Below, one piece after another: positions 32,003 to 33,316 of a DNA stretch of 33,353 nucleotides. The DNA is from Flavobacteriales bacterium (GTDB lineage: Bacteria > Bacteroidota > Bacteroidia > Flavobacteriales_G > Salibacteraceae): positions 1 through 33,353 of the forward strand of contig JABMOM010000042.1 of NCBI GenBank assembly GCA_013204105.1. The letters run 5' to 3'. The notes beneath the pieces were generated by a model. That model ran no database searches, was not told the origin of the DNA, and saw only the letters and a program-made list of their open reading frames with translations. Numbering within the stretch: the first letter of the stretch is position 1; every line of letters begins with the position of its first letter. A program made the translations under genes and the position numbers.

Positions 32003-32902
32003 ATGAGCAAACGGTCTTTGTTACTGTTCATCTCAACTGCATTTCTATGCTGTATCGTAGTTTCTTGCTCCGGTGATGTTGAGCGACTAGAATCCGAGAA
32101 CAAGGAACTGAAAGAGGAACTCCAGACGCAAGAGGATCAGATCATATCCCTGACGCTGGGCACCAAGTTCGTGGATCGCTACGTGGACTCGCTCGAACAG
32201 TTGGAAGCGAGCATTCGGGAGAGAATGAACGGTGATGAAGAGGATACCATCCTCATCCAAAAGATCAAAGACCTCACCCAGCTGGTGCATATGAACAATT
32301 CCATCGTAGCTGAAATCGAGTCGCTCTTGGTGGGTAAGAATAAAGTCGTGAAATTATTGATGGACCACGTGGTAAAACTCGATAATAAGGTCCAGCACCA
32401 AGAAAAGCAGATCGCCCAATTGTTCAGTGAGTTGGATGACATGGGCATTGAATTGGAAAATGCAAAGCAGCTGTACGCAACATTACAAGATAAATTCAAG
32501 GGTGAAAAAGAAAAGGCCGTCGAGCAGTCTCACAAGATCGAAGACTTGGAGCAGTCCTTGGTAGCGTTGGACAAGGAACTTCAGCGCAAAGACGCACAGA
32601 TGAACGAAGCGTTTTATTTCTTCGGAAGTAAGAATGAGTTGGTCAGCATGGACCTCATTGAGCGCAGCTCCATCTTGTCATGGCAGATCAACGAAGAGGC
32701 CGATTTCAACTACCTAACCAAGGTAGATATTCGTCACTTCGCCAAATTGAAGATACCCTCAGAGGAGCTAGAATTGCTTTCTGAACATCCGCGTCAATCC
32801 TATCGTCAAGTAGCGGAGAATGGCGGCTCTGCCCTCTATATTGACGATTACGAGCGTTTTTGGTCCCTTTCGAAGGTCTTGATCGTCAGAACGGGGAAGT
32901 GA
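32003..32902 (+). CDS. Coiled-coil lipoprotein of unknown function
   Basis: A 299-residue lipoprotein: signal ending CIVVSC (Cys22), then a continuous heptad-rich coiled coil (residues ~27-205) rich in E, K, L and Q, then a ~95-residue globular C-terminal domain (FYFFGSKNELVSMDLI ... EEADFNYLTKVDIRHFAKLKIPSEELELLSEHPRQSYRQVAENG ... IDDYERFWSLSKVLIVRTGK). It should sit in the periplasm tethered to a membrane. The C-terminal part resembles domains seen in many uncharacterised Bacteroidota lipoproteins, but no name is certain. The neighbouring waaA does not define its role. Codon use resembles its neighbours. Confidence 0.8.
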   Translation: MSKRSLLLFISTAFLCCIVVSCSGDVERLESENKELKEELQTQEDQIISLTLGTKFVDRYVDSLEQLEASIRERMNGDEEDTILIQKIKDLTQLVHMNNSIVAEIESLLVGKNKVVKLLMDHVVKLDNKVQHQEKQIAQLFSELDDMGIELENAKQLYATLQDKFKGEKEKAVEQSHKIEDLEQSLVALDKELQRKDAQMNEAFYFFGSKNELVSMDLIERSSILSWQINEEADFNYLTKVDIRHFAKLKIPSEELELLSEHPRQSYRQVAENGGSALYIDDYERFWSLSKVLIVRTGK

Positions 32903-32984
32903 GGTGAAACTGACGTAGGAGCATCACTGCCTAGGCTTACTTCAAATATCTTCATTGTGCTGCATAAGTCGCGCACTCAATTCT

Positions 32985-33026
32985 GAGGTTTGACCCTTGT
33001 ATAAGGATCCATCAACCTCACTTTTT
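32985..33026 (+). terminator. Probable terminator after the coiled-coil lipoprotein
   Basis: GAGGTT(T)GA pairs with TCAACCTC with one bulged T (32985-32993 with 33012-33019), with an inner CCTT/AAGG stem, and TTTTT follows at 33022-33026. The bulge and the 82-bp distance from the stop codon make it moderate. Confidence 0.4.
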
Positions 33027-33065
33027 AGTATGTATACTGAGAAGCGCACGATTTACAGGGAATGA

Positions 33066-33089
33066 AAGAGCCACCCAAAGGTGGCTCTT
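33066..33089. terminator. Hairpin downstream of the tRNA remnant
   Basis: A ten-pair stem AAGAGCCACC / GGTGGCTCTT closes a 4-base loop. On the minus strand it lies just after the remnant's CCA and is followed by a short T-rich tail (TTCATT), so it may end the tRNA transcript or be the old terminator of a lost tRNA. Confidence 0.5.
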
Positions 33090-33094
33090 CTCAT

Positions 33095-33160
33095 AGTGGT
33101 ACCCGGGGCGGGACTTCCCGCCCGAACGGCTGAAGCCCTTCAGTCGGGCGGGGAACCCGC
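33095..33160 (-). pseudogene. tRNA-Leu 3'-end remnant split in the T-loop by a 36-bp palindrome
   Basis: Positions 33095-33116 (22 bases) and 33153-33160 (8 bases) together repeat, without mismatch, the 3' end of the intact tRNA-Leu next door (33227-33256): CCA, acceptor 3' strand, whole T stem and T loop. Nothing of the tRNA 5' part, D arm or anticodon arm precedes it. The copy is interrupted between C and A of the T loop (TTC^AAGT) by the palindrome annotated at 33117-33152. It cannot make a tRNA. Confidence 0.85.
33117..33152. repeat. 36-bp palindromic insert (REP-like) inside a tRNA T-loop copy
   Basis: Perfect nine-base outer arms CCCGCCCGA and TCGGGCGGG flank an asymmetric ACGG bulge and an inner CTGAA-GCCC-TTCAG hairpin. 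No target-site duplication is visible. The architecture (long GC stem, bulge, inner stem-loop) is like REP/BIME-type palindromes moved by RAYT transposases; this link is an inference. Confidence 0.6.
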
Positions 33161-33196: not shown

Positions 33197-33219
33197 GAAA
33201 GCAGCCAAATGCTGCTTTC
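33197..33219 (-). terminator. Terminator-like hairpin after tRNA-Leu
   Basis: A nine-pair stem GAAAGCAGC / GCTGCTTTC closes a 5-base loop and, on the minus strand, is followed by TTTGTTTC. It lies 9 bases beyond the tRNA CCA end and is well placed to end the tRNA-Leu transcript. Confidence 0.6.
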
Positions 33220-33228
33220 AAAAATAAG

Positions 33229-33316
33229 TGGTACCCGGGGCGGGACTTGAACCCGCACGACCGCAATGGTCACGGGATTTTAAGTCCCGCGTGTCTACCA
33301 ATTCCACCACCCGGGC
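33229..33316 (-). tRNA. tRNA-Leu (anticodon UAA)
   Basis: An 88-base class II tRNA with encoded CCA. The acceptor stem is GCCCGGG with CCCGGGT (a G-U first pair), the anticodon arm is CGGGA-CTTAAAA-TCCCG with anticodon TAA, the long variable arm is GACC-ATTGC-GGTC, and the T arm is GCGGG-TTCAAGT-CCCGC. A long variable arm plus UAA anticodon gives leucine, decoding UUA and UUG. All canonical elements are intact. Its 3' end is duplicated in a damaged form 133 bases downstream on the same strand. Confidence 0.97.

Follow-up and report, generated by a model that had tools for sequence, protein, structure and literature searches.

The 33,353-nucleotide stretch of Flavobacteriales DNA analyzed here (the window) carries, beside an intact tRNA-Leu(UAA) gene, a partial copy of that tRNA that is split in its T-loop by a hairpin and followed by the remnant of a GIY-YIG nuclease gene. 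Proteins of the host have their best matches, at 92%, in Salibacteraceae and Flavobacteriales MAGs. Judged from the sequence, the locus is probably the relic of a free-standing GIY-YIG homing element of Bacteroidota that invades tRNA genes. We are highly confident of the architecture, of its recurrence and of the nuclease remnant in the window. The trio of an intact tRNA, a nuclease gene and a hairpin-broken tRNA copy is found again in many related bacteria and appears to be what a very small selfish gene that invades tRNA genes has left behind.

The hairpin-split tRNA-Leu copy in the window

Read along the minus strand, the locus consists of GCGGGTTC, CCCGCCCGACTGAAGGGCTTCAGCCGTTCGGGCGGG and AAGTCCCGCCCCGGGTACCACT, where CCCGCCCGACTGAAGGGCTTCAGCCGTTCGGGCGGG is the insert between the two halves of the tRNA copy (Table 1). 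The outer 30 nt (33153-33160 and 33095-33116) are the 3' end of tRNA-Leu(UAA), and the insert junction is the T-loop sequence TTC^AA. The sequence thus confirms the preliminary description, which had reported a 36-bp insert (33117-33152) splitting the T-loop of a 30-nt tRNA-Leu(UAA) copy. That account had also called the insert a palindrome and drawn it as one longer hairpin with the T stem. Neither point holds as worded: the insert is not a simple palindrome, as an inner hairpin lies within it and CGTT stands next to its 3' arm, and RNA folding of this strand predicts that the right arm is instead paired to the T-stem/acceptor side. A 119-nt stretch, which includes the adjoining GAGCCACC hairpin, folds better than 200 of 200 shuffles (z -4.65). 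The class-C family to which the insert belongs is clear by eye and has the form CCYGCCYG, inner hairpin, CGTT, CRGGCRGG.

Table 1. Features of the tRNA-Leu locus, in minus-strand order.
Feature	Position	Strand	Basis
Intact tRNA-Leu(UAA)	33229..33316	-	ARAGORN; Rfam RF00005, 59.4 bits
Terminator-like hairpin 3' of the tRNA	33197..33219	-	1 found vs shuffle mean of 0.7; weak when taken alone
Partial tRNA-Leu copy, 5' part (GCGGGTTC)	33153..33160	-	Sequence comparison
Class-C hairpin, 36 bp, in the T-loop of the copy	33117..33152	-	Sequence, pattern search
Partial tRNA-Leu copy, 3' part (AAGTCCCGCCCCGGGTACCACT)	33095..33116	-	20 nt = tRNA 69-88, 100%
Second hairpin (GAGCCACC..GGTGGCTC), at the terminator place	33069..33090	-	Sequence and fold; absent from terminator predictions
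GIY-YIG nuclease gene remnant, limited to the N-terminal part (36 aa between stops)	32945..33052	-	Own profile E 8.9e-12; Pfam PF01541 27.0 bits, cut-off 22.6

The palindrome is not confined to this locus. The pattern CCCGCCCG-N6..30-CGGGCGGG occurs at 3 places in the 3.1-Mb genome of this organism, as compared to 0 for the backward control, and therefore exceeds chance. When 42 genomes of the order were searched, it was present at 6 places in 4 genomes, and all 6 sit in T- or D-loop contexts, which rules out the isolated accident that the preliminary description had considered. These places are an Arg T-loop (G027), a Leu T-loop (G028), a Val D-loop (G033) and the three in the organism's own genome, two of which lie in a tandem repeat of 157 bp at the end of a contig (G000:C32), between GGTTC and GAGTCC T-arm halves. 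For these 2 of the 6 places the best match, as a tentative parent, is a tRNA-Arg (15 of 18 nt). Each repeat unit (G000:C32 147917-148116; L005 1017-1238) holds a hairpin resembling a terminator as well as a T-arm that is interrupted by a class-C hairpin of 32 bp, and the 32-mer is identical in G027 (L121). The earlier proposal of a palindromic element aimed at tRNA T-arms therefore stands in so far as the element recurs in tRNA arms, but it is not restricted to the T-arm, with further cases in the D-loop, the anticodon region and the variable arm.

The 3' ends of tRNA genes commonly serve as attachment sites, and a duplicated attachment site of an integrase island in tRNA-Leu, followed by an unrelated later insertion, draws support from this. 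We regard that history as very improbable, as the same junctions occur in other genera and tRNAs, a recurrence that disfavors it, and the window holds a GIY-YIG remnant. An uninterrupted duplicate of the tRNA 3' end was not found in the window, where the copy is split in the T-loop. A group I intron was rejected, as the Rfam scan returned no intron in the window; it also returned none in 20 GIY-YIG loci without a tRNA. The organism's own genome has just 17 tRNA matches at 96% completeness, and several of them, like the tRNA of the window, lie at contig ends, which may mean that the assembly is interrupted by repeats beside tRNAs. An assembly artefact is unlikely to account for the units, since they are present in the single-contig genomes G028 and G020.

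GIY-YIG nuclease genes beside tRNA genes

The open reading frames that touch several of the palindrome-bearing tRNA copies are GIY-YIG nucleases. Matches to PF01541 occur in all 42 genomes of the order, including UvrC and other long proteins. Among the matches listed, Pfam identified 90 standalone GIY-YIG ORFs in the order; for 40 of them an intact tRNA lies no more than 300 nt away, as compared to 35 of 2911 control ORFs, and all 40 lie on the same strand as the tRNA (0 opposite). The other 50 of the 90, again among the matches listed, are without an intact tRNA in reach; many belong to a separate clade of genes that are probably housekeeping. Other RNA neighbors of the tRNA-less genes were considered and dismissed, as a scan of 20 loci yielded one TPP riboswitch only. 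At L142, L163, L164, L166, L244, L248 and L121 an intact tRNA is present and a GIY-YIG match at E 1e-4 is absent.

The standalone nucleases are ~80-110 aa long, little more than the catalytic domain, and match UPF0213 and Slx1 structures by sequence. In the relatives the GIY-YIG domain scores 37-60 bits (Pfam), and Y, Y, R and H are invariant in A1. Two layouts occur: a partial 5' copy, the nuclease and the intact tRNA, or the intact tRNA, the nuclease and a partial 3' copy. The nuclease gene of the relatives thus lies between the restored tRNA and the displaced copy, as in fungal mobile ORFs, and this gene is most likely lost in the window. At four loci (L212, L313, L325 and L326) the nuclease ORF takes its stop codon from the tRNA, where it coincides with positions 8-10 (TAG in U8-A9-G10; distance -6). 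At L303, four consecutive nuclease ORFs adjoin tRNA-Asp. L298, L303, L329 and L365 hold tandem arrays, made up of GIY-YIG genes or of scarred tRNA copies (Asp, His), as if one tRNA had been invaded repeatedly. A tRNA-Val(GAC) that is almost complete carries the hairpin in its D-loop at L161 (G027:C110 near 74157), and a GIY-YIG piece follows it.

Complete units occur in relatives. The L122 unit comprises tRNA-Leu, a GIY-YIG gene and a Leu copy with a class-C hairpin in the same T-loop as in the window. The L350 unit comprises tRNA-Met, a complete GIY-YIG gene, a copy with a class-C T-loop hairpin and then, by eye, the truncated start of a second nuclease. The window has the order tRNA, hairpin, partial copy, hairpin and truncated nuclease, and its resemblance to L350 makes it most likely, from sequence comparison, that the window lost a first nuclease between the tRNA and the copy and kept the second as an N-terminal stump. 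The matches nearest to this remnant are L322, L313, L126 and L122. The best of these, L322, lies outside the nuclease clade termed A and the next three inside it, and because just 31 aa are alignable the remnant cannot be firmly placed in clade A. Synteny of the downstream gene (32003-32902) was of no help, as the window's own copy is the sole match among 111 loci.

In a congener, G007 (L333), a complete GIY-YIG gene precedes a partial copy of Leu(UAA) whose T-loop holds a different hairpin. The flanks, after the Leu copy and before the gene, repeat the terminator found 3' of the element-free tRNA-Leu of G012. The link of the G007 element to such a tRNA-Leu is tentative, as the G007 contig begins there and a further tRNA-Leu gene of this genome is followed by other sequence. 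BLAST found no second partial copy in nine congener tRNA-Leu loci (L092-L100).

These loci bear on two ideas raised in the preliminary description. The suggested free T-arm mimic is instead the leftover of a duplicated tRNA gene, which elsewhere lies directly beside a nuclease gene. The suggested RAYT/TnpA-REP partner was not borne out: PF01797 is absent from G402, a genome with 34 arm sites of the palindrome, and 0 of 26 Y1_Tnp loci have a class-C hairpin. The organism's own genome has one Y1_Tnp gene, on another contig than the window. The partner gene that was found is GIY-YIG, with its remnant in the window.

Hairpin classes, nuclease clades and copies outside tRNAs

Perfect hairpins with stems of six pairs or longer occur in 30 of the 36 aligned partial copies, as compared to 688 of 2000 random windows and 38 of 102 intact tRNAs. 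For at least 7 pairs the counts are 23 of 36, 302 of 2000 and 20 of 102, respectively; in some partial copies the longest hairpin counted is a native stem or lies elsewhere than the scar, and the sequences were also read by eye. Six of the 36 are without a hairpin of at least 6 pairs. By eye, the scar hairpins lie in the D-, T- or variable loop, or in place of the anticodon arm. Their sequence differs by nuclease clade: TCCGCC..GGCGGA for Met, TCCCCAAA.. for Asp, mostly TCCCGC.. for Pro, TCCCGA.. or TCACGA.. for the Leu/Val/Met group and class C for clade A. The cleanest contrast is within the tRNA-Leu T-loop, where the window and L122 have class C, whereas L333 and L334, whose nucleases belong to another group, have other hairpins.

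Class-C hairpins lie near 19 of 23 clade-A genes, as compared to 0 of 97 other genes and 1 of 5000 random windows, with a pattern that was tuned on members already seen and with three near-identical L247 copies among the 23. The sampling of clade A is also partly biased, as many loci came from palindrome searches or palindrome-positive genomes. If clade A is limited to the genes that Pfam identified within the order, class C occurs at 5 of 7 (among the matches listed), and by eye also at L326. Clade A has a support of 0.62, and its two halves 0.93 and 0.75. At the genome level, a clade-A match at E <=1e-20 was obtained in 15 of 20 palindrome genomes vs 6 of 20 others. At E <=1e-30 the counts are 9 of 20 vs 0 of 20, where 6 of the 9 genomes had supplied query rows (3 of 14 without them). 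A clade-A gene as predictor of palindromes is thus no more than suggestive.

Among 19 class-C hairpins picked by hand, standard pairing is seen at 148 of 152 outer pairs, and both sides have changed at two pairs. This pairing, and the position of the hairpin directly before or after the ORF, fit a role at the RNA level, in which the hairpin in the tRNA leftover stabilizes or regulates the nuclease mRNA and is kept by selection on the RNA. We consider such a role improbable, as it leaves the fixed D- and T-loop positions unexplained, the predicted RNA fold of the window differs, and the L122 hairpin is by eye not a terminator, a separate terminator following it.

In a class-wide sample, 39 of 395 genomes match the palindrome pattern, many of the matches looking like unrelated GC-rich sequence. 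A search of 18 genomes with the arm CGTTCGGGCGGG gave 97 arm sites in the retrieved loci, 15 of which are without a recognizable 5' arm. The joined flanks span a tRNA at 15 of the 97 sites vs 19 of 2000 random positions; ten of these tRNA-spanning sites are at D-loop 22/23, two in the T-loop, one in the anticodon loop and two at Leu position 13. No target duplication is evident. By eye, L121, L163, L166 and L235 appear tRNA-derived, and the 34 arm sites of G402 lie mostly within GTGATGCG repeats. G409 and G228 have many class-C palindromes outside tRNAs, and together the copies in G402, G409 and G228 speak against a tRNA-only life of these palindromes. The TCCCGA scar class is also moderately dispersed: TCCCGA-N2..8-TCGGGA hairpins number 191, as compared to 44 for backward controls, summed over 42 genomes.

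Individual copies add detail. At L144 and L208-L225 of G402, class-C palindromes lie in GTGATGCG-type tandem repeats, often at CGG^TGA and sometimes nested. In G054 (L137 1501-1536), the reading frame of an htpG-like gene runs through a class-C palindrome of 36 bp, which adds ~12 residues. In L133 one class-C palindrome is placed in the loop of another palindrome, which hinted at insertion into any hairpin apex; this was rejected, as by eye many G402 copies lie in GTGATGCG repeats without an obvious hairpin.

The dispersed copies of G402, G409 and G228, the palindrome within a palindrome and the in-frame copy in the htpG-like gene would all suit an independent REP- or MITE-like mobile palindrome. 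Such an element would insert into loops, or at a site like GGTTM^GA, and would persist only in tRNA leftovers that are dispensable, the GIY-YIG nuclease merely making those leftovers. We think this unlikely: 6 of 6 places in the order are tRNA loops, the link to RAYT was not found, and within a single tRNA, as in the Leu T-loop of the window and L122 vs L333 and L334, the hairpin class tracks the nuclease clade.

A homing model and its known counterparts

The homing reading that we prefer draws on phage T6 SegB, a free-standing GIY-YIG homing endonuclease near tRNA genes whose cuts include sites within tRNA genes, with a motif, RAWTSGAAC, that covers 23 of 83 sites (PMC13096335). According to the accessible part of that report, SegB drives tandem repeats of a tRNA with C-terminally truncated segB, and donor alleles are typically cut poorly (PMC13096335). 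Among 114 intact tRNAs, 44 contain this motif as its reverse complement (0 on the other strand), 22 nt (40 tRNAs) or 24 nt (4) from the 3' end, that is, in the T-loop. The corresponding stretch in the window, GTTC^AAGTC, is interrupted by the insert and differs from the strict motif at two bases, and GTTCVA is present in 113 of 114 tRNAs.

This coincidence of the motif with the loop that is split in the window leads to the following model. The standalone nuclease would cut a tRNA gene inside a conserved loop (GTTC^AA of the T-loop in the window). Recombinational repair from a donor, with duplication, would then yield an intact tRNA, a nuclease gene in the same orientation and, displaced, a partial copy of the tRNA whose presumed cut site would be filled by a clade-typical hairpin. 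By abolishing the site, the hairpin may keep the leftover from being cut again and from recombining readily with the intact tRNA. By analogy, homing of the SegB kind is the probable cause; protection of the cut site by the hairpin is more tentative, at somewhat less than an even chance. Against homing, the intact tRNA keeps the same loop as the presumed cut site, and class-C palindromes are dispersed outside tRNAs in some genomes (G402, G409, G228), with another in an htpG-like gene of G054. It is conceivable, if rather unlikely, that the hairpins are cis-acting parts recognized by their own GIY-YIG clade and able to move in trans. Nuclease and hairpin would then be to GIY-YIG what RAYT and REP are to each other, the nuclease installing or using a hairpin of its own clade in tRNA loops. 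It is similarly doubtful that, on this trans-acting reading, free hairpins spread through genomes such as G402 as followers of the nuclease.

The units resemble REP sequences with RAYT/TnpA-REP in their short bulged-stem palindromes, which are dispersed in some genomes, but differ in the fixed places in tRNA loops and in that no Y1 link was found. Rickettsia palindromic elements are short palindromes able to lie in frame in genes. The in-frame palindrome of L137 is like them in this respect, whereas the tRNA loops and the GIY-YIG link set the present case apart. SegB is closer, as far as the available text describes it, in having a GIY-YIG gene outside introns that adjoins tRNA genes and a preferred motif that is the T-loop. 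The present elements differ in residing in bacterial chromosomes, in involving a single tRNA each time and in leaving a partial tRNA copy with a hairpin; the part of the SegB report available contains 0 occurrences of hairpins or palindromes (PMC13096335). In mobile ORFs of fungal mitochondria (Glomus; Allomyces atp6), the accessible portion of the source describes an endonuclease gene that brings a replacement gene end and displaces the native end downstream (PMC3630166). The product is similar, with a displaced native end beyond the endonuclease gene, but the hosts there are protein genes rather than tRNAs, and that portion describes no hairpin scar (PMC3630166).

With a catalytic domain, no Rfam intron in the window or in the 20 tRNA-less loci scanned and a position, in 40 of 90 cases, next to its presumed target tRNA, the nuclease gene is probably a free-standing GIY-YIG homing gene, a kind already known. 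The way in which it would exploit the tRNA genes of bacteria, leaving hairpin scars specific to its clade, is apparently undescribed, as a literature search covering few subscription papers did not find it. The finding points to a widespread class of minute selfish genes, carried on bacterial chromosomes, that would land in tRNA genes without destroying them, leaving one scarred tRNA copy per visit. The scar predicts the loop and the base cut by each nuclease, and such genes are a possible source of tRNA pseudogenes, of tandem tRNA-nuclease arrays and perhaps of some short interspersed palindromes of Bacteroidota.
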